Source of the DNA: Chlorobiota bacterium
GTDB lineage: Bacteria; Bacteroidota; Bacteroidia; Bacteroidales; VadinHA17
DNA length: 35,980 nt
Assembly (NCBI GenBank): GCA_013152085.1
Contig: JAADHC010000029.1
Coordinates: forward strand, 1 to 35,980
Direction of reading: 5' to 3'
Shown in pieces: positions 15,138 through 32,181 of this stretch. Under the pieces are notes generated by a model, which saw only the letters and a program-made list of their open reading frames with translations, made no database searches and was not told the DNA's origin. Within the stretch, counting starts at the first letter, position 1. The number at the start of each line of letters is the position of its first letter. A program made the position numbers and the translations under genes.

Positions 15138-15203
15138 TTGTTTTGCAGGGATACTAAAAATGATAAAAAGTAGTTATTCAAAGTGAAATTTCCGTAATTT
15201 TAT

Positions 15204-15211
15204 TAAATTTG
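15204..15211 (+). promoter_or_regulatory. -7 promoter box before the envelope gene run
   Basis: TAAATTTG matches TAnnTTTG and ends 19 nt before the first DUF6089-like gene. The 93-bp gap after nadK and this box suggest the DUF6089-uppS-bamA set has its own promoter. No clear -33 element is seen. Confidence 0.45.
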
Positions 15212-15230
15212 TATTACGAAATCGTTTATC

Positions 15231-15977
15231 ATGAAGTGGATAAGCCGGATATTTATTCTTTTATTTATCACTACACTACCTGCCAGGTCGCAAATCTGGA
15301 AAATGCGCCGGTGGGAGCTCCAGGGTGGCATCGGCACGGGACATTATTTTGGTGATATCGGTGGCGTTTCTCCCTCCGAGAACCTGTTGGGACTAAAAGA
15401 TATATCCCTGGTAACTACCCGTCCGGTTTTTAATGTGGGGATGCGCTATAAGATCGGAGCAAACAGGTCGGTAAATGCCCGTTTTTTTACAGGATGGCTC
15501 CATGGACAGGATGCCGGCGGAGTTAACGACGCCCGCGGAATCGTTTTTAACACTTTTATTTTTGAACCTTCCGTAATGTTTGAACAGAATATCATCCCTG
15601 ATAAAAGCAACAAAAGCTATCTGATGATGAAAGGACGCGGGATTATCAGCTTTACCAGCAGCCTGAGCGTGTATGCTTTTGCCGGGATCGGGGGGAGTTT
15701 GTTCTTCCCCAAAGTCGTTGACGATCCATTTAACCGTCTTGATCTTTCAGCTTCGAAAATAGCACTGGTTTTCCCTATGGGCCTCGGGTTAAAATACCCG
15801 ATTGATCCCAACTTTTCCCTGGGATTCACCCTGGGTGCAAGGCTGACCACAACGGATGAAATTGACGGGTTTACATCCCCTTACTCAAAGCATAAGGATA
15901 TCTATTACTTTTCTTCCTTTCATCTGATATGGAAGTTGCGTACCTCGCGCCAGGGATGGCCCTTATTTAAATTGTAA
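15231..15977 (+). CDS. DUF6089-like outer-membrane beta-barrel protein (first copy)
   Basis: A 248-residue protein with a signal peptide (about 1-20, ending near LPARSQ). After it come strand-like segments rich in Gly and aromatic residues (LQGGIGTGHYFGDIGG), the pattern of a small outer-membrane barrel. The position directly before uppS and bamA matches the DUF6089 family in Bacteroidota. It ends 2 bp before a second, diverged copy. Function is unknown; the neighbours point to envelope assembly. Confidence 0.75.
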   Translation: MKWISRIFILLFITTLPARSQIWKMRRWELQGGIGTGHYFGDIGGVSPSENLLGLKDISLVTTRPVFNVGMRYKIGANRSVNARFFTGWLHGQDAGGVNDARGIVFNTFIFEPSVMFEQNIIPDKSNKSYLMMKGRGIISFTSSLSVYAFAGIGGSLFFPKVVDDPFNRLDLSASKIALVFPMGLGLKYPIDPNFSLGFTLGARLTTTDEIDGFTSPYSKHKDIYYFSSFHLIWKLRTSRQGWPLFKL

Positions 15978-15979
15978 CC

Positions 15980-16657
15980 ATGATAATACATCGGTATTTC
16001 AGGTACCTGCTCATTGGCGGGCTGTTCGTTTCAACTATACAGGCGGGTGTGGCACAAAAAAAGGTGATCAATGACCTCGGGCTGGCAGCCGGTGGTGCCT
16101 GGTATTTTGGCGATCTGAATCCGGCAGTGATGTTTTACAGCCCTTCTCCGGCAGTCGGTATCTTCTATCGTCCAAATATTAATAAAAGATATGCGGTTAG
16201 AACATCATTCTGGTTTGGAGGTTTGCGTAGCAATGGGAATGCATTTGGCGATCCCCTGCCCCCGTTCAATACGGCCTCGTTTCAGCATTCTTTTATCGAC
16301 CTGTCCGTTCAGTTTGAATTTAACTTTCTTCCATACAGTCCCCATCCCCGTAAAGTGATGTACTCGCCGTATGTTTCGGCAGGGGCAGGATATGCCATGA
16401 TCTTTGGCGCAACTCCTGCAGGCCAGTTTGTACTGCCTTTCGGCCTGGGTTTTAAACTGAATATTTCGGAACGTATCGACGGCGGCGTCGAATGGGGCTT
16501 TCGCAAAACTTTTAATGATATGATCGACGGTAGTCAGAATTTAATTGCCCCAAATGATAATTCTTTACTACACAATAATGATTGGTATTCAATAGTTGGT
16601 ATATTTGTGAGCTATAAAATTTTCTATAACCGGGAAAAATGCGCCGCTTACTGGTAG
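15980..16657 (+). CDS. DUF6089-like outer-membrane beta-barrel protein (second copy)
   Basis: A 225-residue protein with a signal peptide (about 1-25, ending near AGVAQ). The first strand, GLAAGGAWYFGDLNP, parallels GGIGTGHYFGDIGG of the gene before it, so the pair looks like an old tandem duplication. The segment YVSAGAGYAMIFG and the closing VGIFVSYKI are typical barrel strands. This copy is nearer the DUF6089 pattern I know. It ends 13 bp before uppS. Confidence 0.78.
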   Translation: MIIHRYFRYLLIGGLFVSTIQAGVAQKKVINDLGLAAGGAWYFGDLNPAVMFYSPSPAVGIFYRPNINKRYAVRTSFWFGGLRSNGNAFGDPLPPFNTASFQHSFIDLSVQFEFNFLPYSPHPRKVMYSPYVSAGAGYAMIFGATPAGQFVLPFGLGFKLNISERIDGGVEWGFRKTFNDMIDGSQNLIAPNDNSLLHNNDWYSIVGIFVSYKIFYNREKCAAYW

Positions 16658-16670
16658 TAAATCTTTGCTG

Positions 16671-17420
16671 ATGGAAATGAAAGATCAGATTGATAAGAAA
16701 AAGTTGCCTGTCCACGTGGCGGTTATCATGGATGGTAACGGACGGTGGGCAAAGGAAAAGGGACAGCACCGCATTTTCGGCCACCAGCAGGGCGTTAAAT
16801 CGGTTCGGGAAATCACCGAGGCTGCCGCCGAATTGGGAATCCGGTATCTGACGCTGTTTGCTTTTTCTACCGAAAACTGGAATCGTCCCAAGGAGGAAAT
16901 CAGCGCCCTGATGTCTTTACTGGTTACCACATTAAAATCCGAAACCAAAACCCTGATGAATAACAATATCCGTCTCGAGGCCCTCGGAAACCTGGACCTC
17001 CTGCCCGTTCAGGTACGTGACGGACTTAATGAAACCATAAACAAAACCTCCGGAAATACAGGAATGATCCTGGTGCTGGCACTCAGTTACAGCGCCCGCT
17101 GGGAAATTACCAATGCTGCCAGGAAGATAGCCATGGATGTCCGGTCCGGTAAACTGAATCCGAAAGATATTGACGAACAGGTATTCTCACAATATCTGCT
17201 CACACATCATATCCCCGATCCCGATATCCTGATCCGTACCAGTGGAGAATACCGGATCAGCAATTTCCTTCTTTGGCAAATTGCTTATGCTGAACTCTAT
17301 TTTGTTCATAAATATTGGCCTGATGTCAGAAAATCTGATTTCTACCGGGCAATAATCGATTATCAGCAACGCGAAAGAAGATTCGGGAAAATCAGTGAAC
17401 AAATCCAGTTAAATCTTTAA
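16671..17420 (+). CDS. uppS: Isoprenyl transferase (undecaprenyl diphosphate synthase)
   Basis: A 249-residue cis-prenyltransferase that builds the C55 carrier lipid precursor for peptidoglycan and glycan export. Signature blocks are VIMDGNGRWA (D21 is the catalytic Asp), FSTENWNRP, and the substrate-binding IRTSGEYRISNFLLWQIAYAELYF near the C-terminus. The ATG at 16671 is preferred over a TTG two codons earlier. It lies between the DUF6089 genes and bamA, a common Bacteroidota arrangement. Confidence 0.95.
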   Translation: MEMKDQIDKKKLPVHVAVIMDGNGRWAKEKGQHRIFGHQQGVKSVREITEAAAELGIRYLTLFAFSTENWNRPKEEISALMSLLVTTLKSETKTLMNNNIRLEALGNLDLLPVQVRDGLNETINKTSGNTGMILVLALSYSARWEITNAARKIAMDVRSGKLNPKDIDEQVFSQYLLTHHIPDPDILIRTSGEYRISNFLLWQIAYAELYFVHKYWPDVRKSDFYRAIIDYQQRERRFGKISEQIQLNL

Positions 17421-17431
17421 AGGTGTTTGAG

Positions 17432-19936
17432 ATGGGCATGTGGAAGAAGTTTTTTTACATTACACCGCTTCTGATCATTTTTATTCGTTTATCCTTCGCA
17501 CAAAATACGCCGGATTTCAATATCCCGACGATGGATTATTCCAATCCTCAGCAATATGAGATCGCCGGTATCACCATCTCCGGGGTTGAGTTTCTGGATA
17601 AAAGTATTCTGGTACAACTTACCGGTTTGAAAGTAGGGCAGGAGATACTGATCCCGGGAGAGGCGATCACCAAATCATTGAACAAACTGTGGAAACAGGG
17701 ATTGTTCTCGGATATCAAAATAACGTATACCAAAATCGAAGGAACAAAAATTTATCTGGATTATTATCTTAAGGAACGACCCCGTTTGTCAAAGTTTAAG
17801 TTTACCGGAATACGGAAATCCGAAAAAGATGACTTGCAGGATAAAATAAACCTCCTGGCCGGAAGCCAGGTAACGGAAAACATTATCAACAATGCAACCA
17901 AAGTTATCTCTGATCATTATATCGAAAAGGGCTTCCTTGATGTGAAAGTAAGTATCAGACAGGAAAAAGACCCCAGATTCCAGAATAGTGTCATTCTGGT
18001 AGCTGATATTGATAAAGGGAACCGGGTTAAAATCGGAGAATTGTCTTTTGTCGGAAATAAAGTTTTCCCGGATAAACGCCTCCGGAGGGTGTTGAAAAAA
18101 ACCAAGAAAAAGAACCTGAACTTTTTCAAAACCTCCAAATTGGTGGAGAGTGAATATAAGGAAGACAAGAAAAGTCTGGTCGAATTTTATAATAAAAACG
18201 GTTACCGTGATTTTAAAATCCTTGGGGATACGATCTATCCCATCCCCGGTGAAGAAGCACGTATCGGATTGATACTGAAAGTGTATGAAGGAGACCGCTA
18301 CTATTTCAGAAACATTACCTGGGTAGGAAACACAAAATATACCACCCAGGAACTGAGCCGTAAGCTGGGAATTAAAAAGGGTGACCCCTACGACCTTACA
18401 ACATTAAACGAACGGGTGAATACGGATGAAGATGCTGTGAGTAGCTTGTATATGGATGCCGGTTACCTTTTTTCCCAGATCATCCCTGTTGAGAAGCATA
18501 TTGAAAACGACTCCGTTGATATAGAGATGAGAATCTACGAAGGAGAACCGGCAACCATCGATAAGATCATGATCCGGGGTAATACCAAAACCAACGAACA
18601 TGTGGTAAGGCGTGAATTGCGAACCATGCCGGGTGAGTTGTTCAGTAAAACGGATATCATCAGGTCGGTACGTGAACTGGCTCAACTGGGACATTTCGAC
18701 CCCGAAAAAATTTCACCCAATCCCATACCCAATCCGTCAAACGGAACCGTTGACCTGGAGTACGACCTGACCGAAAAAGCCAACGATCAATTCGAAATCT
18801 CCGGAGGATGGGGTGCCGGAATGCTCGTGGGAACCATCGGGTTACGATTCAATAACTTTTCGGTCAGGAACCTGTTCAATGGTAAGGCATGGCGACCGAT
18901 ACCTACCGGAGACGGCCAGTCTGTCAGCCTCAGGGCCCAGTCCAACGGAAGATATTACCAGGCGTACAGTTTTAGTTTTGTAGAACCCTGGTTTGGCGGG
19001 AAAAAACCCAATGCCTTTTCCTTTTCCCTCTACCATACCATCCAATCCAATGGAAGAAAAAAGACTGACCTTACCCGCCAGGGACTCAATATTAACGGTG
19101 CTACCATAGGTTTGCAGAAAAGACTGAAGTGGCCCGATGACTATTTTACACTCTATACCGGTTTAAGTTTCCAGAATTATATCCTTAATAACTGGAATCA
19201 GTATTTCCTCTTCTCAAACGGGAATTCAAACAATGTAAGTTTTACTACCACTTTCGGACGTTTTTCCGCCGGGCCAAACCCGATTTATCCCACTTTGGGA
19301 TCAAATGTTTCTTTATCTCTCCAGGTTACCCCGCCTTTTTCAGCCTTTAATTCAAAAAATTATGCCGACCCGGAAATGACGGATAGCGAGCGATACCGGT
19401 GGATTGAATACCATAAATGGACCTTTAAGTCCGACTGGTATCTGACTTTGGCAGGAAAATTGGTATTATATACAAGGGCTCATTTCGGTTATCTCGGTTA
19501 TTATAACCGGCATATCGGCCCCTCACCCTTCGAAGGCTTTGACCTGGGAGGTGACGGAATAACAGGTTATAACCTCTACGGACGCGAAACCATTGCGCTG
19601 CGTGGATATGAAAACGGTTCTTTGACACCTATAATAAATAATAAGAAAGCCGGAAATATGTATGAAAGAGTGACCATGGAACTCCGGTACCCGATAACCC
19701 TGCAACCCCAGGCTACCGTTTTTATCCTGGGATTTCTCGAGGGCGGAAATGCCTGGTACCGCATACAGGATTTTAATCCTTTCGGACTGAAACGTTCTGC
19801 CGGCATCGGATTACGGGCCTTCCTGCCTATGTTCGGATTGCTCGGAATCGATTGGGGCTATGGCTTTAATTCCATACCCGGAAGGCCGGAAGCCAACGGT
19901 AGCCATTTCCACTTTGTTATCGGACAGGAATTTTAA
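17432..19936 (+). CDS. bamA: Outer membrane protein assembly factor BamA
   Basis: The core of the beta-barrel assembly machine that inserts outer-membrane proteins. The product is about 834 residues, with a signal peptide (ending near LSFAQ). The N-terminal half consists of POTRA repeats (for example QYEIAGITISGVEFLDKSIL, LSKFKFTGIRKSEKDDL, VKIGELSFVGNKVFPDKRLR). The C-terminal half is the Omp85 barrel, including LRGYENGS, the VRGF/LRGY-type motif that folds into the lumen. It ends in a Phe (IGQEF), the usual barrel signature. An upstream GTG at 17423 is possible, but ATG 17432 or 17438 gives a better signal peptide. Confidence 0.94.
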   Translation: MGMWKKFFYITPLLIIFIRLSFAQNTPDFNIPTMDYSNPQQYEIAGITISGVEFLDKSILVQLTGLKVGQEILIPGEAITKSLNKLWKQGLFSDIKITYTKIEGTKIYLDYYLKERPRLSKFKFTGIRKSEKDDLQDKINLLAGSQVTENIINNATKVISDHYIEKGFLDVKVSIRQEKDPRFQNSVILVADIDKGNRVKIGELSFVGNKVFPDKRLRRVLKKTKKKNLNFFKTSKLVESEYKEDKKSLVEFYNKNGYRDFKILGDTIYPIPGEEARIGLILKVYEGDRYYFRNITWVGNTKYTTQELSRKLGIKKGDPYDLTTLNERVNTDEDAVSSLYMDAGYLFSQIIPVEKHIENDSVDIEMRIYEGEPATIDKIMIRGNTKTNEHVVRRELRTMPGELFSKTDIIRSVRELAQLGHFDPEKISPNPIPNPSNGTVDLEYDLTEKANDQFEISGGWGAGMLVGTIGLRFNNFSVRNLFNGKAWRPIPTGDGQSVSLRAQSNGRYYQAYSFSFVEPWFGGKKPNAFSFSLYHTIQSNGRKKTDLTRQGLNINGATIGLQKRLKWPDDYFTLYTGLSFQNYILNNWNQYFLFSNGNSNNVSFTTTFGRFSAGPNPIYPTLGSNVSLSLQVTPPFSAFNSKNYADPEMTDSERYRWIEYHKWTFKSDWYLTLAGKLVLYTRAHFGYLGYYNRHIGPSPFEGFDLGGDGITGYNLYGRETIALRGYENGSLTPIINNKKAGNMYERVTMELRYPITLQPQATVFILGFLEGGNAWYRIQDFNPFGLKRSAGIGLRAFLPMFGLLGIDWGYGFNSIPGRPEANGSHFHFVIGQEF

Positions 19937-19966
19937 AAAACAAATATTCACTTAAAACCTGATATC

Positions 19967-20482
19967 ATGAAAAAGTTAGTATATATCTTAAGTTTTCTCC
20001 TGCTCACCGGCGGAGTAGCCTTTGCACAAAAGTACGCTTTTGTGGATACGGAATATATTCTCAGCAACATCCCGTCTTATAAAGCGGCTCAGGAACAACT
20101 GGATAAAATCAGCAAGGATTTTGAACAGGAAATTTCCGACCGCTATGCCGAAGTGGATAAAATGTACAAGGCTTACCAGAATGAAGTCGTTCTGCTGACA
20201 CAGGATATGCGAAAGAAACGCGAAGATGAGATCGTTAAAAAAGAACAGGAAGTAAAAGATCTTCAGCAAAAATATTTCGGGCCTGATGGCGATCTGTTCA
20301 AGAAACGGGAAGAACTCGTTAAACCCATTCAGGATGAGATCTATAATGCCGTGAAAGAAATTGCCGTTGAAGGAAATTATGCGGTGATCTTTGATACAGC
20401 CAGTGGCCCGGCTTTCCTTTATACCAATCCCCGGTACGACCTGAGTGATTTAGTCCTGAAAAAAATGGGATATAAAGATTAA
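19967..20482 (+). CDS. OmpH/Skp family periplasmic chaperone (first copy)
   Basis: A 171-residue protein with a cleavable signal peptide (1-21, ending VAFAQ). The N-terminal YAFVDTEYILSNIPSYKAAQ and C-terminal YAVIFDTASG strands bracket a long charged coiled coil (about 50-125), the Skp jellyfish layout. Skp holds unfolded outer-membrane proteins on the way to BamA, and this gene directly follows bamA. It is half of a tandem pair of equal-length paralogues. Confidence 0.9.
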   Translation: MKKLVYILSFLLLTGGVAFAQKYAFVDTEYILSNIPSYKAAQEQLDKISKDFEQEISDRYAEVDKMYKAYQNEVVLLTQDMRKKREDEIVKKEQEVKDLQQKYFGPDGDLFKKREELVKPIQDEIYNAVKEIAVEGNYAVIFDTASGPAFLYTNPRYDLSDLVLKKMGYKD

Positions 20483-20487
20483 ATCTT

Positions 20488-20495
20488 TACATTTG
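20488..20495 (+). promoter_or_regulatory. Possible -7 box for the second OmpH gene
   Basis: TACATTTG, followed by CGTTCG, matches TAnnTTTG in the 110-bp gap between the two OmpH genes. It begins 5 bp after the first OmpH stop codon and would give a leader of about 90 nt. Confidence 0.35.
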
Positions 20496-20592
20496 CGTTC
20501 GAAAAACACATAAACAGATGATACAATGAACGCTCCGTGATCTTATGGCCCGTTCAGTACTATCCGGTTAATTCAAAATAAACGATAAACAG

Positions 20593-21108
20593 ATGAAAAA
20601 ATTAGTAACGATTATTTTTGCTCTTTCCGTAGCTCTTTCGGGAAGTGTCCTTCATGCACAGAACCTGAAATTCGGGCATATCAACAGCTCGGAATTGCTG
20701 CAGGCTATGCCTGAAAATGACAGCGCCCAGGCACAACTCCAGCATTATGCCAAACAACTGCAGGATCAGCTCCAAACCATGCAAACGGAATACAACACCA
20801 AATTACAGGACTACCTGGGACAACAGGATAATCTGACGGATCTGATCAAAAAAACAAAAGAGGAAGAACTCCAGCAACTACAACAACGTATTCAGGATTT
20901 TCAGAGTACCGCACAGCAGGATATGCAGAAAAAACAAAACGACCTGCTGACTCCCATCATTAACAAAGCCAATGAGGCCATTAAGGCCGTGGCCCGGGAG
21001 AATGGATTTATTTACATCTTTGATATATCCAGGGGTACTATCCTTTATTACTCGGATAAAAGTCAGGATATTCTCCCCCTGGTGAAGAAAAAACTGGGTA
21101 TTCAGTAA
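20593..21108 (+). CDS. OmpH/Skp family periplasmic chaperone (second copy)
   Basis: A 171-residue paralogue of the gene before it. The signal peptide ends near VLHAQ. The sequence LKFGHINSSELLQAMPE takes the place of the first-copy VDTEYILSNIP block. The coiled coil is much richer in Gln (LQQLQQRIQDFQ) than in the first copy, and the closing strand is FIYIFDISRG. Two OmpH copies behind bamA are common in Bacteroidota and may form hetero-oligomers, which is speculation. A clear intrinsic terminator follows. Confidence 0.9.
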   Translation: MKKLVTIIFALSVALSGSVLHAQNLKFGHINSSELLQAMPENDSAQAQLQHYAKQLQDQLQTMQTEYNTKLQDYLGQQDNLTDLIKKTKEEELQQLQQRIQDFQSTAQQDMQKKQNDLLTPIINKANEAIKAVARENGFIYIFDISRGTILYYSDKSQDILPLVKKKLGIQ

Positions 21109-21134
21109 GAATTGATCAGGATTTTTTAATTTTG

Positions 21135-21168
21135 AAGACCATCTGCAACGGCAGCGTGGTCTTTTTTT
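21135..21168 (+). terminator. Intrinsic terminator before murI
   Basis: AAGACCA (21135-21141) pairs with TGGTCTT (21157-21163), with an inner CTGC-aacg-GCAG stem. A run of seven T (21162-21168) follows. This is the clearest intrinsic terminator in the window. It ends only 6 nt before the murI start, so it either closes the ompH transcript or acts as an attenuator in the murI leader. Confidence 0.75.
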
Positions 21169-21174
21169 ATAGGT

Positions 21175-21990
21175 ATGTCCATGACTGATCACGATAAACC
21201 CATAGGCGTTTTTGATTCAGGAGTCGGAGGCCTGACCGTAGCACATGCCATTCGCCGGATTCTGCCCGGAGAGTCCATGATCTATTTCGGCGATACCGCT
21301 CATCTTCCTTATGGTGATAAATCACCCGAATCCATCATCTATTATTCGAAGAAAATTACCGGTTTTCTCCTCGGAAAACAGTGCAAAGCCATTGTCATAG
21401 CATGTAATACAGCTTCTTCGGTGGGCTATGAAGAGATCAGTAAATATGCCGGTGACCAGGCCCTCATATTCAATGTGATCGATCCTGTTACCGATTATTA
21501 CCATGAGTTTCTGGCACCCAAAACGGTGGGGGTGATCGGCACTAAGGCAACGATACAGTCCGGAGCATACGAAAAAAAGATATTGGCGGAAAACCCGGGC
21601 GTGAAAGTGTTCTCCAAGGCAACACCCCTGTTGGTCCCGATGATCGAGGAAGGATTTATCTATGACGACATCAGCAATGCCATTATACGGGCTTACCTCT
21701 CGGATAAACCCCTTGACAATGTTGAAGCCCTGATCCTCGGTTGTACGCATTATCCGATCATTAAAAACCAGATCAGGCGCTTTTATAATTTTGATGTTGA
21801 GATCCTTGATTCGGCATCTATCGTAGCCGGTGCACTGAAATCCAGGCTTGAGGCTGATGGCCTCCTGCATTCCGGACGAAGGGGAAAAGACCGGTTTTTT
21901 GTTTCGGATTATACCCCTTACTTTAAAAAGATCGCCGGAATGTTTTTCGATGGCAGCATCGAACTTGAAAAACGCGACCTCTGGCGGTAA
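21175..21990 (+). CDS. murI: Glutamate racemase
   Basis: Converts L-glutamate to D-glutamate for peptidoglycan. The 271-residue product has GVFDSGVGGLTV (11-22), the first catalytic Cys in ACNTAS (C77) and the second in GCTHYP (C190), both with normal context. ATG 21175 and ATG 21181 are both possible starts; the family core begins at KPIGVFDSG. It is last in the envelope run. Its 3' end meets the decayed carbonic anhydrase fragment on the opposite strand. Confidence 0.94.
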   Translation: MSMTDHDKPIGVFDSGVGGLTVAHAIRRILPGESMIYFGDTAHLPYGDKSPESIIYYSKKITGFLLGKQCKAIVIACNTASSVGYEEISKYAGDQALIFNVIDPVTDYYHEFLAPKTVGVIGTKATIQSGAYEKKILAENPGVKVFSKATPLLVPMIEEGFIYDDISNAIIRAYLSDKPLDNVEALILGCTHYPIIKNQIRRFYNFDVEILDSASIVAGALKSRLEADGLLHSGRRGKDRFFVSDYTPYFKKIAGMFFDGSIELEKRDLWR

Positions 21991-22463: not shown

Positions 22464-22505
22464 TTAAATGCATGTAAAAATGGAGACGTTTTTATATGCA
22501 TTTAA
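22464..22505 (+). promoter_or_regulatory. 17-bp hairpin in the korA leader
   Basis: TTAAATGCATGTAAAAA (22464-22480) pairs with TTTTTATATGCATTTAA (22489-22505) over 17 positions, one of them G-U, around an 8-nt loop (tggagacg). The ATG at 22496 lies inside the right arm and would be hidden by the fold, while the ATG at 22526 is free. There is no T-run after it, so it does not look like a plain terminator. It may control translation, stabilise the leader or be an inverted-repeat operator. Confidence 0.65.
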
Positions 22506-22525
22506 CATATGAAGCGAATAAACCC

Positions 22526-24367
22526 ATGGGCAAACAACAGAAACCTATTGAATTAGATGATGTTACAATCCGGTTTTCCGGAGATTCCGGTGACGGAATG
22601 CAGTTGACGGGGACACTGTTTTCAAATACTTCTGCGTTTTTAGGCAATGACCTGGCCACTTTTCCCGATTACCCTGCCGAGATCAGGGCTCCTCAGGGTA
22701 CCGTAGGAGGCGTATCCGGATTTCAGGTTCATGTGGGTCATAAAAATATAAAAACACCCGGAGATTATGCGGACATTCTGGTGGCTATGAACCCGGCAGC
22801 ACTCAAAGCCAACGCCAAATGGGTGAAAATGGGTGGCACCATCATTCTGGATGTTGACAATTTTAATGAAAAAGGCTTTGCAAAAGCCGGCTATCGGGAT
22901 GACCCCATTAAGGAAGAAGGACTGGAGGACTACAATATCATCCGGGCCCCCATTACGTCACTGACCAAAGAAAGCCTGAAAGATCTTGGCCTGGATATGA
23001 AAAGTGTGGTGCGTAGTAAAAATATGTTTGCCCTCGGGATGATCTACTGGCTTTTTAACCAGCCTTTGAAATATACGGAGGAGTTTTTTACCAACAAATT
23101 CCGTAAACGTCCCGAAATTATTAAAGCGAATGAAAAAGTGCTTAAAGCAGGATACCATTATGCAGACACTATTGAAGCACTGCATACTTCCTATCTTATC
23201 AGGCCTGCTGAGATTGCCAAAGGGAACTACCGTAATATTAATGGCAATACCGCTACGGCGTGGGGATTGCTGGCAGCAGCTGAAAAAGCGGGTTTACAGT
23301 TGTTTATAGGTTCTTATCCCATCACCCCCGCTACAAGTATCCTTGAAGAAATGGCTGCAAGAAAAGATCTCGGGGTGATCTCTTTCCAGGCAGAAGATGA
23401 AATTGCCGGAATCTGTACCTCCATCGGCGCCAGTTTTGCCGGGAAGATGGCAGTAACCACAACCTCGGGACCGGGCCTGGCACTCAAATCCGAAGCAATC
23501 GGTCTGGCCGTTATAACAGAACTTCCATTGGTGATTGTAGATGTTCAGCGGGGTGGCCCTTCTACCGGCCTGCCTACCAAAACCGAACAATCCGACCTGA
23601 TGCAGGTGCTTTATGGACGTAACGGCGAAAGCCCGGTAGCCGTGGTTGCCGCAAGTACACCGTCAAACTGTTACTATTATGCCTTTATGGCTGCTAAAAT
23701 TGCCCTCGAGCATATGTGTCCCGTAATCCTGATGACGGATGGTTATCTGGCTAATGGCTCGGAACCCTGGAAAATCATGCCTACCGGTGAATTGCCTGGA
23801 ATTACGCCTCCTTTTGCCGACCCGGATAAAGAGTATGAACCCTATGAGCGGGATCCGGAAACCCTTGTTCGTAAATGGGCCATACCCTCTATGCCCGGAC
23901 ATGAACACCGTATCGGCGGCCTTGAGAAAGATGCGCTGAAAGGGACTGTCTCTTATGATCCTGTTAATCATGAAGTGATGACAAAGACCAGGGCTGAAAA
24001 AATCCGCAGAATTACAAAGGAAATCCCGGACATTGAAATCGAAGGAGATCAGGACGGTGATGTCCTGTTGGTTGGATGGGGAAGTACTTACGGTCATCTG
24101 GCTACAGCCCTCGAAGAACTGCTGGACGAAGGTAAAAAAGCGGGACTGGCACATTTTCATTATCTGAACCCGTTACCGCTCAATACCGGAGAAGTCCTTG
24201 GAAAGTTTAAGAAGATTATTGTTTGTGAACTCAATATGGGACAGTTTGCCGGTTATCTCCGGATGAATTTTCAGCAATTTACGTACCATCAGTTGAATAA
24301 AATCCAGGGCCTGCCCTTTACCGTTACTGAAATTAAAGATGCTGTAAATAAATTATTGGAGGTTTAG
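22526..24367 (+). CDS. korA: 2-oxoacid:ferredoxin oxidoreductase, alpha subunit (gamma-alpha fusion)
   Basis: The larger subunit of a CoA-acylating 2-oxoacid oxidoreductase, most likely for 2-oxoglutarate, using ferredoxin. From the ATG at 22526 it has 613 residues. The N-terminal gamma domain opens with TIRFSGDSGDGMQLTG; the alpha domain starts near LFIGSYPITPATSILEEMA and includes GPGLALKSE and VDVQRGGPSTGLPTKTEQ. The ATG at 22496 would add 10 residues but lies in the hairpin stem and before the usual family start. korB follows 2 bp later. No separate ferredoxin-type delta subunit is present, as in the two-subunit enzymes. Substrate choice is inferred from family resemblance. Confidence 0.88.
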   Translation: MGKQQKPIELDDVTIRFSGDSGDGMQLTGTLFSNTSAFLGNDLATFPDYPAEIRAPQGTVGGVSGFQVHVGHKNIKTPGDYADILVAMNPAALKANAKWVKMGGTIILDVDNFNEKGFAKAGYRDDPIKEEGLEDYNIIRAPITSLTKESLKDLGLDMKSVVRSKNMFALGMIYWLFNQPLKYTEEFFTNKFRKRPEIIKANEKVLKAGYHYADTIEALHTSYLIRPAEIAKGNYRNINGNTATAWGLLAAAEKAGLQLFIGSYPITPATSILEEMAARKDLGVISFQAEDEIAGICTSIGASFAGKMAVTTTSGPGLALKSEAIGLAVITELPLVIVDVQRGGPSTGLPTKTEQSDLMQVLYGRNGESPVAVVAASTPSNCYYYAFMAAKIALEHMCPVILMTDGYLANGSEPWKIMPTGELPGITPPFADPDKEYEPYERDPETLVRKWAIPSMPGHEHRIGGLEKDALKGTVSYDPVNHEVMTKTRAEKIRRITKEIPDIEIEGDQDGDVLLVGWGSTYGHLATALEELLDEGKKAGLAHFHYLNPLPLNTGEVLGKFKKIIVCELNMGQFAGYLRMNFQQFTYHQLNKIQGLPFTVTEIKDAVNKLLEV

Positions 24368-24369
24368 CC

Positions 24370-25395
24370 ATGTCTGAAACGAAAGAATTTGTACAATATA
24401 CCCCCAGGGATTTTAAAAGTGACCAGGAAGTAAGATGGTGCCCTGGATGTGGTGACCATGCAATCCTGAACAGTATGCAGCGGGCAATGAGTGAGTTGGG
24501 CATCCGAAAGGAAATGTATGCCGTCATCTCCGGCATTGGCTGTTCCTCCAGGTTCCCGTATTATATGAATACATACGGTTTTCATACGATCCATGGTCGT
24601 GCCGCTGCTATTGCTTCCGGGACAAAAGTGTCTAATCCCGAACTAAGCGTATGGGAAATTACCGGTGATGGTGATGCGCTGGCTATTGGTGGAAATCATC
24701 TGATCCATGCCGTTCGCAGAAATGTCAATATCAACATCATCCTTTTCAACAACCAGATTTATGGCCTTACCAAAGGGCAATATTCACCCACATCAAAAAA
24801 AGGACAGATAACCAAAACTTCCCCTTACGGTACGGTTGAAGATCCTTTCCACCCGGGTGAGCTGGTTATCGGTGCCCAGGGTAAGTTTTTTGCCCGTACG
24901 ATGGATAATAATATTAAACTTTCCACGGAAATTTTTAAGGAAGCAGCCCGCCATGAAGGAACTTCTGTAATTGAAGTATTGCAGAACTGCGTGATATACA
25001 ATGATGGCGCTTATGCAGATATCAACGATAGGGAGCATCGTGAAGACCGGCAGCTTATCCTGCATGACGGCGAACCGATGATCTTTGGAAAAAACAGGGA
25101 TAAAGGGATCATCATGGATGGATTTAAATTGCAGGTGGTGACCCTTGGCGAAAAAGGGATTACAGAAGATGATATTCTTATACATCATGCCAATGAGAAC
25201 AATCCGGGCCTCCATACCATGATCTCAAACATGCGTCATCCGAGTTATCCGGTAGCCCTTGGCGTGATCCGAAATGTTCAGTCGCCGGCTTACGATATGA
25301 TGGTACATGCTCAGATTGATAAAGTAAAGGCCGGATCGAAAATCAAATCGGTGAACGACCTGCTTTTCAGTGGAAATACCTGGGAAGTTGAATAA
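24370..25395 (+). CDS. korB: 2-oxoacid:ferredoxin oxidoreductase, beta subunit (TPP-binding)
   Basis: A 341-residue subunit carrying thiamine diphosphate and, by family, one 4Fe-4S cluster. The Cys ligands are visible in WCPGCGDH (C24, C27), GIGCSSRFP and probably LQNCVIYND. The TPP motif is GDGDALAIGGNH followed by NNQIYGLTKGQYSPTS. With korA it decarboxylates a 2-oxoacid to the acyl-CoA and reduces ferredoxin, typical of anaerobes running a reversible or partial TCA cycle. It starts 2 bp after korA. Confidence 0.92.
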   Translation: MSETKEFVQYTPRDFKSDQEVRWCPGCGDHAILNSMQRAMSELGIRKEMYAVISGIGCSSRFPYYMNTYGFHTIHGRAAAIASGTKVSNPELSVWEITGDGDALAIGGNHLIHAVRRNVNINIILFNNQIYGLTKGQYSPTSKKGQITKTSPYGTVEDPFHPGELVIGAQGKFFARTMDNNIKLSTEIFKEAARHEGTSVIEVLQNCVIYNDGAYADINDREHREDRQLILHDGEPMIFGKNRDKGIIMDGFKLQVVTLGEKGITEDDILIHHANENNPGLHTMISNMRHPSYPVALGVIRNVQSPAYDMMVHAQIDKVKAGSKIKSVNDLLFSGNTWEVE

Positions 25396-25562: not shown

Positions 25563-25622
25563 TTATCTACGTAGATAAATTTATTTAACTACGTAGATAA
25601 TTTTTAAGAACTACGTAGATAA
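25563..25622 (+). promoter_or_regulatory. Three CTACGTAG palindromes phased at 22 bp
   Basis: CTACGTAGATAA occurs exactly three times, at 25567-25578, 25589-25600 and 25611-25622, with starts 22 bp apart. The core CTACGTAG is a perfect 8-bp palindrome. The first copy extends to the 16-bp palindrome TTATCTACGTAGATAA (25563-25578). Spacing near two helical turns puts all copies on one face of the DNA, as expected for cooperative binding of a dimeric regulator. The array lies about 120-180 bp upstream of the receiver-kinase-like gene at 25741 and is the main feature of the 345-bp gap. Confidence 0.7.
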
Positions 25623-25740: not shown

Positions 25741-28700
25741 ATGATGATGAATTTCTGGGACCTGGATGAGAATATTCATAAGATCCTGCTGCAGAAAACC
25801 GAAAAACTGCAGGAGCTGGCCTTTATAAATGAAGCTTCGGCAGTGCTGAATGAATATAAATCCATTGAGGAGGGTATGTCTGAAATGGTACTGCTTATCA
25901 GGAGTCATTCACGCTTTACGGAAAATGCGCATGTCCGTATCAGCTTTGACGGCAATGAATATACATCTCCTGATTTCAGACACACCCACTGGGGCATTAC
26001 CCAAAAATTTGAAACCATTGACGGACAACAGGGGAACATACAAATTTATTACTCCGGCGAGGTCCGGCCCAACAGTAAAAGTGTCCTTACTGCTGTCAGA
26101 CAGGATACGGTTTTGCTCGAAGAGATGGCAAGAATGATCGCCGGTTTCCTGAATCATAAGAAAAGTCAGGCTGTATTTGATAATGCGGAAAAAAAGTCAG
26201 ACAAAAAATCCGGCTATGGCAAACCCCTGACTACACGACGGTTGTTACAGATATTTCTGGATAAGCATAATGCCGACAGGGACGTGTTTCATGATCTCAT
26301 GCCGTTTAAGGCCAGGGAGATACTGCTCGTTGCCAGTCTCTATGATGCATACAGTATCGAAGGAGAAGGGCAGTTTACCGACCACATCCTGGGTGAATAC
26401 CATCAACTGAACCTTACGGCTGTGCCAAGGGTAACCGCCGTTTCATCGGGAGAGGAGGCATTGGCACGCCTCGACCGGAAACATTTCGACCTGACGATTA
26501 TCATGGTTGGTGCCGATAAAAAATCGCCGATTGAACTTTACCGCAGTATAAAAAAGAAATATTCCTACCAGCCTACGTACCTGCTGCTTAATAATAACAA
26601 TGATATTCCTTTTGTAAGAAACGAGTTGCGGAATCTCGATCCCTATGACCACTTTTTTGTATGGAACGGGGATTCCAAGGTTTTCTTTGCCATGGTCAAG
26701 CTGCTTGAGGATCGTGTAAACATTCAAAATGATACCCGCGTCGGCTTTACCCGCATTATCCTGCTTGTCGAGGATAATACAAAATATTTCTCACGGTATC
26801 TGCCGGTGTTGTATACAACCATCCTGGAACAGACGAAAAGCCTGATCGAGGATGTGGGGATGGACGACCGTTACAAAGTGTTAAAGCTGAGGGCCCGGCC
26901 AAAAGTTCTGCTCGCAACCAATTATGAGGAAGCTGTCGAGATCATTAATGATTACCGTGATTACCTGCTGGGGATTATTTCCGATGCCCGCTTTCCGAGG
27001 CAGGGAATCGTCGATTCCAGGGCAGGATATAAATTACTGAAGTATGTACGTACATTTCTCCCCAATCTTCCCGCCATCTTCCAGTCTTATGAACCCGGGA
27101 ATGCCGTGCTTGCCGAAGAGTTGAATGCAAACTTTATCGATAAGAATTCCGAATCCCTCTTTCAGGACCTGCGTCATTTCATCAACTATTATCTCGGTTT
27201 TGGCCATTTCGTGTACCGGGATCAGGAGGGCAGGGAAATTGCCGTTGCCAGATCAATGGAGGAGTTTGAAGCTTACCTCCAGACCATCCCCGAAGAATCC
27301 CTGGCATATCATGCCATGAAAAACCATTTTTCCCTATGGCTGATGGCCCGGGGAGAAACCAGGATCGCCAAAGCCATAAACCCGCTCAAGATTTCAGACT
27401 TTAAAAATCTGTCCGAGTTGCGTGAGTTGCTGATTGAAATTGTCCGGCGCAGAAGAAGCGAGCAGGATCGTGGCAAGATCATCCCTTTTAACGAACAGGC
27501 TGTTACCGATGAGAGCAATATCGTCAGTCTGGCCTCCGGCTCACTCGGAGGAAAAGGCCGTGGCATTGCATTTATCAATACATTGATCTATAATTTCGGA
27601 TTAACGCGTTTTACCCCGGGCATCAATGTCAGAACACCAAGAACAGCCATCATCGGCACCGATGAGTTTGACCGCTTTATTGAAACCAATGAGTTGCAGG
27701 AAACACTCTACCATATCCAGGATTACCGGGAACTGCAAAAGAAGTTTATCACCGGCAAACTTACCGGCGAACTGGAAGATAAACTACGGATCATTCTTCG
27801 CCTGATCCGCAAACCGATAGCCGTCCGTTCCTCCAGCCTCCTGGAAGATTCCCTTACACAACCGTTCAGCGGGATCTTCGGTACGTACATCTTACCCAAC
27901 AACCATCCCGACCTCGAAATTCGCCTGAAACAGCTGCTCGATGCCATAAAGCTGGTATATGCTTCCATTTATTCACCGCAGGCCAGAAGCTATTTCGAAG
28001 CGATTGATTATAAGATCGATGAGGAAAAGATGGGCATACTGATCCAGGAAGTTGTAGGTAATACATTTGACAGGTATTACTATCCCCATCTTAGCGGTAC
28101 GGCACAATCGCACAACTACTACCCCGTAGCGCACATGAAGCCCGAAGAAGGATTTGCCGTGGCTGCAGTGGGATTGGGGCAATATGTGATGACCGGGGAA
28201 ACAGCTTTCCGTTTTTCACCCAGGTATCCCAAACTTGATGTCCTTACCCCGAAGCAATTGTTTCAGAATTCGCAGACCGAGTTTTTTGCCGTTAATCTGG
28301 GACAGCCGGAGATCGATCTCCTGGAGGGCGAGGAAGCAGGCCTGAAACGCCTGACCATAAGTGATGCCGAAAAACATGGATCCCTGAAACACTGCGTCTC
28401 GATATACAATGCCGATAATGACCGTCTGGATCCGGGCCTGGATACCCCCGGCCCGCGGATCGTTGATTTTGGCAACATCCTGAAATATGATTATATTCCC
28501 CTTGCCCGAACCATAAATTTTCTGCTCGAACTGTCTAAAGAGGCCATGGGGTGCCCCGTGGAAATTGAGTATGCTGTGGACCTCGAAAAAGACGAAAAAG
28601 GACTGGCCTCATTTTATCTCCTGCAGATCAAACCGCTGATCAGCATGGATTATGATTTTAACCTGGATATGAACACTATTAACAAAAAGAAAATAGTCCT

Positions 28701-29196
28701 TTATTCTACCAAAAGCATGGGTAATGGAAAACTGGATAATATAAGTGATGTGGTCTATGTGGATGAGGAAATCTTTGACAATACCAAAACGATACAGATT
28801 GCCAACGAAATTCAGGAACTCAACCGGAAAATGGTGCAGGCCGGCACCCCGTATATACTGATAGGTCCCGGCAGATGGGGTACACGCGATCGTTTTATCG
28901 GGATTCCGGTTAACTGGCCCCAGATCTCCATGGCCAAAGTGATTGTGGAAACCGGCCTGAAAGATTACCCGCTGGATGCTTCCCTCGGCTCTCACTTCTT
29001 TCATAATGTCACCAGTATGAATGTCGGATATTTTTCAGTCCAGCATTATAACCACGAAGAATATATCCGCTGGGAAACCCTGAAGAAACAAACCGTTGTT
29101 GACAAAACAACTTTTTGCCGTCATGTTCGTTTTAACCATCCCCTCACGGTCTTTATGGATGGGAAAAAGCGGATTTCCGTAATTCTTGAACACTAA
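25741..29196 (+). CDS. Receiver-receiver-PEP-synthase-type ATP-grasp protein with an extra sensor-like N-terminus
   Basis: An 1151-residue soluble protein. Residues 1-150 look like a GAF-type sensor with a helical start. Residues 191-325 resemble a receiver domain whose phospho-acceptor position is not Asp (DLTIIMV). Residues 336-485 form a second receiver with VEDN (343-346), D415 (IISDARF) and K468 in place. Residues 600-966 match the PEP/pyruvate-binding ATP-grasp domain of PEP synthase: GGKG (603), RSSSLLEDS (696-704), EIEYA (941-945) and LQIKP (961-965). The phosphohistidine swivel domain and TIM barrel of PEP synthase are absent. The C-terminus (985-1151) is a conserved domain I do not recognise, with GPGRWG (1042-1047) and H1085. 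Databases may call such proteins PEP synthase, but full activity is unlikely. Several in-frame ATGs cluster at the start. Confidence 0.8.
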   Translation: MMMNFWDLDENIHKILLQKTEKLQELAFINEASAVLNEYKSIEEGMSEMVLLIRSHSRFTENAHVRISFDGNEYTSPDFRHTHWGITQKFETIDGQQGNIQIYYSGEVRPNSKSVLTAVRQDTVLLEEMARMIAGFLNHKKSQAVFDNAEKKSDKKSGYGKPLTTRRLLQIFLDKHNADRDVFHDLMPFKAREILLVASLYDAYSIEGEGQFTDHILGEYHQLNLTAVPRVTAVSSGEEALARLDRKHFDLTIIMVGADKKSPIELYRSIKKKYSYQPTYLLLNNNNDIPFVRNELRNLDPYDHFFVWNGDSKVFFAMVKLLEDRVNIQNDTRVGFTRIILLVEDNTKYFSRYLPVLYTTILEQTKSLIEDVGMDDRYKVLKLRARPKVLLATNYEEAVEIINDYRDYLLGIISDARFPRQGIVDSRAGYKLLKYVRTFLPNLPAIFQSYEPGNAVLAEELNANFIDKNSESLFQDLRHFINYYLGFGHFVYRDQEGREIAVARSMEEFEAYLQTIPEESLAYHAMKNHFSLWLMARGETRIAKAINPLKISDFKNLSELRELLIEIVRRRRSEQDRGKIIPFNEQAVTDESNIVSLASGSLGGKGRGIAFINTLIYNFGLTRFTPGINVRTPRTAIIGTDEFDRFIETNELQETLYHIQDYRELQKKFITGKLTGELEDKLRIILRLIRKPIAVRSSSLLEDSLTQPFSGIFGTYILPNNHPDLEIRLKQLLDAIKLVYASIYSPQARSYFEAIDYKIDEEKMGILIQEVVGNTFDRYYYPHLSGTAQSHNYYPVAHMKPEEGFAVAAVGLGQYVMTGETAFRFSPRYPKLDVLTPKQLFQNSQTEFFAVNLGQPEIDLLEGEEAGLKRLTISDAEKHGSLKHCVSIYNADNDRLDPGLDTPGPRIVDFGNILKYDYIPLARTINFLLELSKEAMGCPVEIEYAVDLEKDEKGLASFYLLQIKPLISMDYDFNLDMNTINKKKIVLYSTKSMGNGKLDNISDVVYVDEEIFDNTKTIQIANEIQELNRKMVQAGTPYILIGPGRWGTRDRFIGIPVNWPQISMAKVIVETGLKDYPLDASLGSHFFHNVTSMNVGYFSVQHYNHEEYIRWETLKKQTVVDKTTFCRHVRFNHPLTVFMDGKKRISVILEH

Positions 29197-29202
29197 TCCT
29201 TT

Positions 29203-32181
29203 ATGGGCGAGTTTCCTTATACATATACCCTCGACAAGTACGACTTCGGAGATGTTTCCTTTGAACTGCTGATGCAGAAGCGTATCCATAGGGTGCTGCT
29301 GGTGGTTAACCGTTATGATGCCTTTATCCTCGAAGAAGACGGCCGTATCGACGAACAGATATTTAACGAATATGTCTCACTCAGCTTGCGGTATCCTCCG
29401 GTTTTTATTCAGGCCGGTTCACCCGAAAAAGCTTTGAATATCCTCGAAAACGAACAGATCGACCTGGTTATTTCTGCCCTGAAGATCGGCGACAGGGATG
29501 CTTTTGCCCTGGCACGTGAAATGAAATCACGATACCCGGAGATCCCCATTGTGGTGCTTACCTATTTTTCACGTGAGGTGTCCAGGAAAATCGAAACGGA
29601 AGACCTTTCCGCTATTGATTATGTCTTTAGCTGGCTTGGAAATGCCGACCTGCTCCTGGCGATTATCAAACTTATCGAGGATAAGATGAATGCCGAATAC
29701 GATATCCGCAATATCGGTGTCCAGGCCATTATCCTGGTAGAAGACTCGATCAGGTATACTTCATCGTACCTCCCCAGCCTGTACAGGATTATCTTTCAGC
29801 AATCCAAGGAGTTTCAGCAGGAAGGGTTGAATGAACACCAGAAAATGATAAGAATGCGGGGGCGCCCTAAAGTACTCCTGGCTACCAATTTTGAAGATGC
29901 CGTCGGGTTATTTGAAAAATATAAATTTAATACCCTGGGTATTATTTCCGATGTGAGCTTTAAAAAGGAGGGGAAAAAAGACCCGGAAGCAGGCCTTCAC
30001 CTGTTGCACCATGTCAGAAAAGCTGACCCGCATATGCCTTTCCTGCTGCAATCTTCAGATGCCTCCTATGCTGAAACGGCGTATAAAAACGATGCCGGCT
30101 TCATACATAAATACTCGAAGTCCCTGTCACATGAACTCAAGCAGTTTATTATCGATTACCTGGCCTTCGGCCCTTTTGTCTTTATCGACCCCGATACAGG
30201 CAAAGAGATTGACCGGGCAACGGATTTGCAGGAATTTCAGCAAAAACTTATGCAGATTCCTGACAAAACCCTGGAATATCATACCCTGCGAAACCATTTC
30301 TCCCGGTGGCTGAATGCGCGGGCACTCTTTCCCATTGCCCAGATGTTCAAATATCTGAAAAATGAAGATTTTCCATCGCTGGAAGACCTGCGCAGGTTCG
30401 TTTTTGTCTCTGTTTCAAGCTATCGCCTGGGACGAAGCCGGGGCGTAATTGCCCAGTTCGATGCGGAAACCTACGATGAATATGCTGTATTTTCACGTAT
30501 CGGTGAAGGTTCTATCGGAGGCAAGGCACGCGGACTGGCCTTTGTAAATATTATGATCAAGGAAAACCGGCTGTTTAATAAGTTTGATAATGTATTGATA
30601 TCCATCCCCCGTACCGTGGTGATCAGTACCGAGGTGTTTGATGAATTTATGGACCGGAATAAACTTTACGAAGTGGGATTGGCCGACCTTCCGGATGAAG
30701 AAATACTGAAAAGTTTCGTTAAAGCGGAATTGCCGGCTTCCCTCGACAAAGACCTGGAAGCATTCCTGAAAGTTGTCCGGAACCCCGTGGCCATACGTTC
30801 GTCCAGTAAACTGGAGGATTCGCATTACCAGCCTTTTGCCGGAATCTATTCCACCTATATGATCCCGGGACATTCGGATTACCGGTGGATGCTTGGCGCA
30901 CTGAAAGATGCCATCCGTCAGGTATATGCCTCGGTGTACTTTAAAAACAGTAAAGCATACATGACGGCTACATCAAATGTCATAGATGAGGAGAAAATGG
31001 GCATTATCCTTCAGGAAGTTTGTGGTAACGCTCACGGATCTCTCTTTTATCCGACATTTTCCGGGGTGGCACGCTCGATAAATTATTATCCCATCGAACC
31101 GGAAAAACCCGGAGATGGTATCGTAAGGGTTGCCTTCGGCCTGGGGAAAATAATTGTTGACGGGGGAACCAGTCTGAGGTTCTCACCGAGATATCCGCAG
31201 AAAATATTGCAGCTAAGCTCTACCGATACGGTATTGAAAGAAACCCAGCGTCTTTTTTATGCCCTTGACCTGCATCCCGAAAGTTTTGTTCCGTCGGTGG
31301 ATGACAGTGTAAACCTGAAAAAACTAAGGATTGGAGATGCCCCCGAAGACAAAGCCCTCCAATATGTAGCTTCTACCTATGACTTTCAGAATCATATGAT
31401 CAGGGACGGTATCCAGGAAAGTGGAAAGCGCATCATTACCTTTGCCAATATCCTGCAGCATAAGCAGTTTCCCCTGCCGGATATTGTCAGTGAGCTTCTG
31501 GAGACAGGACAACGTGAGATGGGAAATCCTATTGAGATTGAATTTGCCGCCAACCTGGAAACACCGAAAGGTTTACCGCAGATTTTTAATTTTTTGCAGA
31601 TACGGCCGATTGTCGTGGGAGAGGAGGGCCTGGACGTGAATATCAACGAATGGAAACAGGAGGATGTCCTTCTCTATTCTGATGCCGCACTTGGCAACGG
31701 ACTGATTACCGGTATCCGTGATATGGTCTATATCAAACCCGAAAGTTTCAATGCGGCAAGATCCGCAGAAATCGCTGCTGTGGTCGATAAACTAAACCGG
31801 CAGTTTGGTAACGGGAATGAAAATTATATCCTCATGGGTCCCGGACGATGGGGTTCCTCGGATCCGTGGCTCGGCATACCGGTAAAATGGCCGCAAATAT
31901 CCAATGCCCGCCTGATTATCGAGGCAGGGAAGAAAGATTATCGTATCGACCCCAGCCAGGGAACACACTTTTTTCAGAATCTCACTTCATTCCGTGTCGC
32001 ATATTTTACAATTAACCCCGAATTGAATGATGGTATCCTCGATCTTCAGTGGCTCAATGCAATGCCGGCAGTTTACGAAGATGATTTCCTCCGTCATATC
32101 CGCTTCCCTGAACCGGTGACTATCCGGGTTGACGGCAGGAAAAACCGTGGCGTCGTCCTGAAACCGGGAGTGAACGACTGA
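29203..32181 (+). CDS. Receiver-receiver-PEP-synthase-type ATP-grasp protein, second paralogue
   Basis: A 992-residue paralogue starting 6 bp after the previous stop, so probably in one operon. It lacks the sensor-like N-terminus. Residues 27-160 are a degenerate receiver (DLVISALKI, no acceptor Asp). Residues 173-320 are a second receiver with VED (179-181), D250 (IISDVSF) and K303. The ATP-grasp domain spans about 435-803: GGKA (439), RSSSKLEDS (532-540), EIEFA (778-782) and LQIRP (798-802). The unknown C-terminal domain repeats the partner's pattern, including GPGRWG (879-884), KWPQIS and GTHFFQNLTS (H922). Again there is no swivel His domain or barrel. Function is unknown; a heteromeric phospho-signalling or nucleotide-dependent regulatory complex is possible. 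Confidence 0.8.
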   Translation: MGEFPYTYTLDKYDFGDVSFELLMQKRIHRVLLVVNRYDAFILEEDGRIDEQIFNEYVSLSLRYPPVFIQAGSPEKALNILENEQIDLVISALKIGDRDAFALAREMKSRYPEIPIVVLTYFSREVSRKIETEDLSAIDYVFSWLGNADLLLAIIKLIEDKMNAEYDIRNIGVQAIILVEDSIRYTSSYLPSLYRIIFQQSKEFQQEGLNEHQKMIRMRGRPKVLLATNFEDAVGLFEKYKFNTLGIISDVSFKKEGKKDPEAGLHLLHHVRKADPHMPFLLQSSDASYAETAYKNDAGFIHKYSKSLSHELKQFIIDYLAFGPFVFIDPDTGKEIDRATDLQEFQQKLMQIPDKTLEYHTLRNHFSRWLNARALFPIAQMFKYLKNEDFPSLEDLRRFVFVSVSSYRLGRSRGVIAQFDAETYDEYAVFSRIGEGSIGGKARGLAFVNIMIKENRLFNKFDNVLISIPRTVVISTEVFDEFMDRNKLYEVGLADLPDEEILKSFVKAELPASLDKDLEAFLKVVRNPVAIRSSSKLEDSHYQPFAGIYSTYMIPGHSDYRWMLGALKDAIRQVYASVYFKNSKAYMTATSNVIDEEKMGIILQEVCGNAHGSLFYPTFSGVARSINYYPIEPEKPGDGIVRVAFGLGKIIVDGGTSLRFSPRYPQKILQLSSTDTVLKETQRLFYALDLHPESFVPSVDDSVNLKKLRIGDAPEDKALQYVASTYDFQNHMIRDGIQESGKRIITFANILQHKQFPLPDIVSELLETGQREMGNPIEIEFAANLETPKGLPQIFNFLQIRPIVVGEEGLDVNINEWKQEDVLLYSDAALGNGLITGIRDMVYIKPESFNAARSAEIAAVVDKLNRQFGNGNENYILMGPGRWGSSDPWLGIPVKWPQISNARLIIEAGKKDYRIDPSQGTHFFQNLTSFRVAYFTINPELNDGILDLQWLNAMPAVYEDDFLRHIRFPEPVTIRVDGRKNRGVVLKPGVND

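Follow-up and report, generated by a model that had tools for sequence, protein, structure and literature searches.

Receiver-dikinase proteins P1 and P2 of Bacteroidota: a candidate phospho-signalling family at the 2-oxoglutarate/glutamate branch point

Introduction

Two adjacent genes in the window (the whole 35,980-nucleotide stretch of DNA analysed here, from a Chlorobiota bacterium) encode large proteins, P1 and P2, in which receiver (REC) domains are joined to an ATP-grasp domain of the PEP-synthase type, and they raise the question of what a dikinase core might do when it is fused to receivers and parted from the PEP/pyruvate barrel. The architecture itself is already on record, as published censuses (PMC5847659; PMC4395418), in their accessible portions, list REC-PPDK response regulators and describe receivers that lack the phospho-acceptor Asp as "highly associated" with PPDK outputs, and as a related gene pair is known from Desulfovibrio vulgaris, where a protein with a PPDK-type ATP-grasp and a mobile domain is encoded beside a lone receiver (DVU0246/DVU0247; PMC4001038, accessible text). 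Transposon mutants of that pair showed equal growth with and without 100 mM nitrate, according to the same text. The first-pass annotation of the window had left room for an existing experimental description of the architecture; the censuses do name REC-PPDK, and their accessible portions report no experiment on it. We found no functional account of REC-PPDK fusions in the open literature.

Domain architecture and family of P1 and P2

The P1 frame (25741-29196, 1151 residues) and the P2 frame (29203-32181, 992 residues) lie on the plus strand with 6 bases between them, and their products are 38% identical across P2 residues 10-987, which bears out the first-pass description of adjacent paralogues of these lengths; the motifs that the annotation had named are present in both translations. 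Pfam places PPDK_N at residues 601-968 of P1 (27541-28644, E 1.4e-32) and 437-819 of P2 (30487-31626, E 2.5e-35), and REC at residues 70-150 of P2 (E 2.2e-10, above the cut-off) and 224-290 of P1 (E 0.0014, below the cut-off). The second receiver of each protein escapes Pfam, is visible in the alignment and, in P2, is also evident from the order of strands and helices in the model, and the proposal of two receiver-like domains with one PEP-synthase-type ATP-grasp per protein therefore holds. The predicted structure of the whole P2 chain (mean pLDDT 85) gives the order REC1 (residues ~27-165, 29281-29697; also by Pfam and alignment), REC2 (~173-320, 29719-30162), a helical linker, ATP-grasp (~429-808; also by VIA-align and alignment) and a C-terminal, swivel-like domain (822-992, 31666-32178; also by VIA-align and alignment). 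By alignment P1 follows the same order, with REC1 at residues ~190-330 (26308-26730; also by Pfam), REC2 at ~337-485 (26749-27195), a linker, ATP-grasp and a C-terminal swivel-like domain at 28693-29193 whose borders come from alignment to P2, all preceded by an extra N-terminal domain of ~165 residues (1-165, 25741-26235) that is absent from P2. DUF5752 scores 26.7 bits on the P1 linker against a cut-off of 23, and falls below the cut-off on the P2 linker. Pfam finds no PEP/pyruvate TIM barrel in either protein, and the chain of the P2 model stops at the C-terminal domain. A separate classical PPDK, the sole other PPDK_N protein of the genome, is encoded on another contig (917-residue frame with PPDK_N and PEP-utiliser domains).

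The N-terminal domain of P1 received no assignment from Pfam, NCBIfam or the PDB. Its profile (P1 alignment A4 holds 37 of the 48 P1 relatives) has one further match in the genome of the window, within a PAS/GAF histidine kinase of 1617 residues, and weaker matches to P1 lie in a 923-residue hybrid kinase and a Crp-type regulator. The two kinases and the Crp-type protein partly back a likeness of the domain to kinase-linked sensor domains, and because related stretches occur in histidine kinases and in a Crp-type regulator it is probably an input domain. P1 and P2 may accordingly sense different signals for one target, since only P1 would have this additional input. A further weak match lies within a 284-residue protein that has a Pol-beta-type nucleotidyltransferase domain (locus L211, 1379-2230).

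A pattern scan of one genome per species returned at least 585 relatives of P2 among at least 590 matches listed, and this number, together with the identity between P1 and P2, argues that the architecture is not a product of chance. The 80 relatives kept from the scan are from Bacteroidota-type MAGs, with one Chlorobiota. A phylum sample of 296 genomes contributed further full-length relatives at 39-53% identity, REC-less forms of 575-606 residues (one of these, G047, stands outside the neighbourhood counts below) and distant forms of 777-1084 residues. A Pfam scan of eight distant proteins gave a C-terminal NTP_transf_2 domain above the cut-off, together with PPDK_N, in six (L180, L183, L190, L191, L203 and L207) and not in L187 or L189. 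Profiles that run from the ATP-grasp to the end align the distant form with the rest at a probability of 100% (E 5e-75, 536-550 columns). In the tree, support is 0.99 for a P1 clade of 49 tips and 1.0 each for a clade of P2 proteins and a clade of ten short genes, and the placement of the REC-less short form with P2 or P1 has a support of 0.115. A P2 frame of ~2200 residues in two relatives, considered as a fusion, proved to be P1 and P2 side by side.

Receivers and ATP-grasp

Conservation was counted over 173 full-length rows, 48 of P1 and 125 of P2, the latter made up of a near set (79 Bacteroidales-type P2 loci) and a far set (46 P2-like genes from 36 genomes of the wider Bacteroidota). The complete table of 210 rows adds 16 short REC-less rows, among which are five fragments cut off at contig ends and L147, part of a broken P2, and 21 distant rows that include one fragment (L064); ten partial relatives were set aside, and loci L084-L103 were excluded as overlapping duplicates. 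REC1 is a receiver without the acceptor Asp, and REC2 is a receiver with intact acceptor residues. REC1 of P2 matches receivers at Z ~15 (VIA-align), its phospho-acceptor position is occupied by Met, Ala, Thr or Trp and never by Asp in 173 of 173 relatives, and Trp (Trp144 in P2) replaces the conserved Lys in every one of them. REC2 keeps E180, D250 (29950-29952; Asp415 of P1, 26983-26985), S/T284 and K303 in all 173, while the second acidic residue, D181, is kept in 145 and is Asn in 28 near P2 proteins. The P2 model of this domain has five strand-helix units plus one inserted helix, and D250, S284 and K303 sit where strands three, four and five end or immediately after, their usual places in receivers.

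The ATP-grasp appears to be intact and of the PEP-synthase type, as judged by its sequence: K441, R532, E538, E778, E780 and Q799 are conserved in 173 of 173 relatives, and R801 is replaced by Lys in all 48 P1 proteins. In VIA-align, P2 superposes on rifampin phosphotransferase and PEP synthase over 287-367 residues, with Z 25-26 (maximum 26.0). The Lys, Arg, Glu and Gln residues are assigned their roles at the ATP site by analogy with PPDK. A loss of chemistry in these proteins finds no support, since the ATP-site residues are conserved throughout the full-length P1 and P2 relatives.

C-terminal domain

When the C-terminal domain (~170 residues) was folded alone (pLDDT 86.5), its top VIA-align row was the phosphoryl-carrier domain of PPDK (2fm4; rmsd 3.7 over 119 residues), at a Z of 7.4 that falls below the caution line of 8. 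PPDK accounts for eight of the first ten rows, and the first 17 comprise eight PPDK, two pyruvate kinase C-terminal regions, two enzyme I, one rifampin phosphotransferase and four chaperonins; enzyme I scores 5.7 and rifampin phosphotransferase 5.2, and the unrelated chaperonins reach 5.7. With the whole P2 model, the match to PEP synthase (2ols; Z 25.4, rmsd 5.1, 367 residues) extends from model residue 418 to 991 on chain residues 4 to 467, and the matches to PPDK extend to residue 988 (1dik, Z 18.2) and 992 (1kbl, Z 17.5). All three ranges start in the ATP-grasp and finish in the C-terminal domain, a range giving the first and last aligned residue only and so not proving continuity through that domain, and fewer than one fifth of the whole-P2 rows span the C-terminal part.

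A single histidine stands out in this domain. The equivalent of His922 of P2 (31966-31968; His1085 of P1, 28993-28995) is present in 209 of 210 rows (P1 48/48, near P2 78/79, far P2 46/46, short 16/16, distant 21/21), and in the models its motif, G(T/S)HFF, stands where a helix begins after a strand, with low pLDDT at residues 920-922 of the P2 model. The motif published for the residues before the swivel histidine, T/SxxGGxxxH (PMC12167813, accessible text), is absent from both proteins, P2 having DPSQGTH and P1 DASLGSH, in which Ser, Gly and His are invariant in alignment A1 (44 of 98 P2 and 29 of 48 P1 relatives plus the window's two).

On the grounds of sequence the domain is not recognisable as a PEP-utiliser: every sequence test failed, and only VIA-align, with both models, pointed in that direction. 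Profile searches with PF00391, run to an E of 10, matched the C-terminal domain in 0 of 75 members, and genome-wide they matched a single place, the classical PPDK. A comparison by hhalign with 22 PEP-utiliser domains of the same phylum gave a probability of 0.1%, a longer profile alignment that included the ATP-grasp was poor and left the two histidines unpaired, and neither sequence searches of the PDB nor Foldseek alone gave a significant match for the domain. The other alignments comprised 22 of 26 extracted domains (A2), and 64 of 98 P2 plus 7 of 48 P1 relatives (A3). Because sequence profiles miss the kinship and the structural score is middling, we hold with moderate confidence only that the domain, as modelled, is a derived swivel domain with a catalytic histidine. 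The first-pass statement that neither a His domain nor a barrel is present can be kept for the barrel, on Pfam and the model, and is probably wrong for the His domain, given the C-terminal fold matches and the conserved histidine.

Were there no phosphoryl acceptor here, the ATP-grasp and C-terminal domain would only bind nucleotide, perhaps 2-oxoglutarate as well, and change shape, leaving REC2 alone to signal and forming no His phosphate. Such a non-catalytic regulator would fit a His domain that sequence profiles miss, the absent swivel motif and a P2 model in which no acceptor domain is seen. REC-carrying, REC-less and distant relatives nevertheless all keep the C-terminal His together with the Lys, Arg, Glu and Gln of the ATP site, gaps being mostly contig-end fragments, and conservation of this kind exceeds what binding usually needs; we consider non-catalytic regulation unlikely.

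Gene neighbourhood

Upstream of P1 in the window lie genes for a KorA-type 2-oxoacid:acceptor oxidoreductase alpha subunit (22496-24367, plus strand; Pfam POR_N/POR, NCBIfam TIGR03710 at 651 bits, above the cut-off) and a KorB-type beta subunit (24370-25395, plus strand; TPP_enzyme_C, with PorB_KorB at 251 bits, just below the cut-off of 262), and 345 bases separate KorB from P1. We infer 2-oxoglutarate as the substrate of this KorAB. 2-Oxoglutarate is the metabolite that KorAB-type enzymes and glutamate dehydrogenase (GDH) have in common. Many Bacteroidales relatives likewise have the P1-P2 pair behind KorAB. Of the 79 loci in the near set, 60 have P1 adjacent to P2, 12 lack it despite at least 3.6 kb of upstream sequence, and 7 have too short a flank; the two proteins are usually but not invariably neighbours, a point that the first-pass annotation had proposed to test. 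KorB lies within 4.6 kb of P2 in 34 of the 51 near loci with at least 6 kb upstream, and GDH within 3 kb in 14 of the 54 with sufficient downstream sequence; within 1 kb, GDH is lacking in 66 of the 79, a group that includes 17 loci ending near a contig end. The order KorA-KorB-P1-P2 is followed by a same-strand GDH within 3 kb in L037, L038, L043, L045, L072, L074, L075 and L206, and is accompanied by GDH on the opposite strand in L051 and L055. KorAB and P2 occur without an intervening P1 in L033, L067 and L071, the last with GDH after P2.

The far set has a same-strand GDH within 1 kb of 36 of its 46 P2-like genes, directly upstream in 33, an other-strand GDH beside two, and none within 1 kb of eight. 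These GDH-linked P2 genes come from 27 of the 36 genomes and nine of the ten family codes, the GDH being convergent in the tenth (L155 and L156, from the window's order), and L140, L143, L146, L159 and L171 have two P2-like genes, each with a GDH directly before it. GDH identity was taken from Pfam for one member of each of two GDH types and from BLAST to those members for the rest. By our estimate, chance alone would put a gene in such a position well under 1% of the time, given a genome of ~3.5 Mb that has a few GDH genes. A mirror correlation between far P2 and upstream GDH (r 0.65, 33 pairs) was set aside as evidence of co-evolution, having no species-tree control.

REC-less forms show a linkage of their own. 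The second GDH type lies directly upstream of nine of the ten REC-less short genes (L141 and L174-L182, the exception being L141), and all ten are followed by a distant form; L203 has GDH, a REC-less short gene and a distant form, and L204 has GDH and a short gene without the distant form. Six of 20 distant genes have a same-strand GDH within 1 kb and 14 have none within that distance, and some of the distant forms fused to a nucleotidyltransferase adjoin GDH. That REC-carrying and REC-less forms are linked to two GDH types and to KorAB points to control of the 2-oxoglutarate/glutamate node, although gene neighbourhood by itself does not demonstrate enzyme control. Baggio and Morrison reportedly found in 1996 that GDH activity in B. 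thetaiotaomicron is affected by trans-acting genes downstream of gdhA.

Recurrent neighbours that are metabolic enzymes would also suit a metabolic dikinase, one whose substrate would be a small molecule of the glutamate/2-oxoglutarate node and whose rate the receivers would tune, and this ATP-grasp is found in the small-molecule dikinases PEP synthase, PPDK, rifampin phosphotransferase and HpeHI. The P2 model, however, has no substrate domain besides the ATP-grasp and C-terminal domain, and the presence of two receivers, of which one lacks the Asp, speaks for signalling; a metabolic role is improbable in our estimate, and we prefer a signalling one.

The source of phosphate for REC2 bears on a further alternative. 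Clusters c4 and c2, which follow P2 in five far loci (L140, L148, L159, L168 and L171), resemble, by the sequences of their L140 members, a histidine kinase of the PAS type and a regulator of the NarL type, and no kinase gene was seen beside P1 and P2 in the window. Within P1 and P2 the ATP-grasp could itself drive a phosphorelay, from ATP to His922 and on to Asp250 of REC2, with no histidine kinase taking part, and the near-invariance of His922 and Asp250 in the same chains would agree with this as would the window's lack of an adjacent kinase gene. We judge this internal relay distinctly improbable, since the apparent kinase and regulator genes of the five far loci speak against it and since the histidine is kept in REC-less relatives, where it must have another use. 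Phosphorylation of REC2 in trans by a histidine kinase is the reading that we carry forward.

Several other features of the loci were recorded. L174-L182 and L203 constitute a second system of GDH, a REC-less ATP-grasp protein and a distant ATP-grasp protein that mostly has a nucleotidyltransferase domain, and ten loci have, close to the distant ATP-grasp gene but on the other strand, a gene for a calcineurin-type phosphoesterase (one member identified by Pfam). The window genome's own two GDH-family genes are on another contig, seemingly in a setting like that of L205, without P1; in L205, which comes from a relative of the same family, two GDH genes flank P1, and a different contig carries the P2 relative. 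Before P1, window positions 25563-25622 hold CTACGTAGATAA in three direct copies spaced 22 bases apart. The element has 33 forward and 27 reverse exact matches genome-wide (0 and 1 for the reversed control), many of them overlapping because its core is a palindrome, and the 15 places inspected, the site before P1 included, have one to four copies each among varied genes, so that it resembles a palindrome dispersed between genes more than an operator specific to P1. The CTACGTAG repeats in front of P1, at first taken for a dedicated operator, likewise recur across the genome. Further upstream, positions 14253-21990 encode NAD kinase, two barrel-like outer-membrane proteins, an undecaprenyl diphosphate synthase family protein, a POTRA protein, two OmpH-like proteins and an Asp/Glu/hydantoin racemase family protein.

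Discussion

The reading that we favour, with confidence about evenly balanced, is that P1 and P2 belong to a Bacteroidota phospho-signalling family, receiver-gated and dikinase-like, that controls the 2-oxoglutarate/glutamate branch point. The putative mechanism would begin as it does in PEP synthase and rifampin phosphotransferase, with the ATP-grasp passing a phosphoryl group from ATP to a histidine, here His922 of a strongly altered swivel domain; REC2, once phosphorylated in trans by a histidine kinase, would gate this transfer, and the His phosphate or the resulting change of shape would act on the neighbouring enzymes. A bolder form, in which the ATP-grasp dikinase starts a relay from ATP to H922 and then to D250 and/or to GDH/KorAB as a dedicated Bacteroidota system for 2-oxoglutarate/glutamate control, we regard as a long shot.

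PEP synthase (2ols), PPDK (1dik/1kbl) and rifampin phosphotransferase (5hv1) have the ATP-grasp in common with P2 (Z 17.5-26), whereas P1 and P2 have two added receivers, no PEP/pyruvate barrel or rifampin-binding domain, and a swivel domain that is unrecognisable by sequence and lacks T/SxxGGxxxH. The census proteins share the receiver-PPDK fusion, and the accessible census text is silent on any intact second receiver, on a His domain at the C-terminus and on a link to GDH or KOR. DVU0246 and DVU0247, compared by description, differ in being separate proteins with a recognised mobile domain, and glutamate enzymes go unmentioned in the accessible account. Actinobacterial GarA/OdhI, in the accessible descriptions, acts with Ser/Thr kinases and, unlike P1 and P2, has neither REC nor ATP-grasp. 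GarA/OdhI is an FHA protein defined by that domain, and Pfam, run to an E of 1, matches FHA in neither P1 nor P2. A search of the open literature, with most subscription papers outside its scope, returned no description of the intact REC2, the C-terminal domain or the GDH/KOR link. The architecture alone is not new; what is new is the genomic linkage, and the GDH association across the sampled phylum, taken with the conserved histidine and the intact receiver, makes a concrete and testable case for carbon/nitrogen control.

Large PPDK-domain proteins that are easily taken for metabolic enzymes by their name thereby gain a testable regulatory role, and the conserved His, the conserved Asp and the neighbouring enzymes make the question of control directly testable in vitro. 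Should the linkage be a sign of control, a dikinase core and receivers would together make up a carbon/nitrogen switch in a widespread phylum, in parallel to GarA/OdhI of the actinobacteria.
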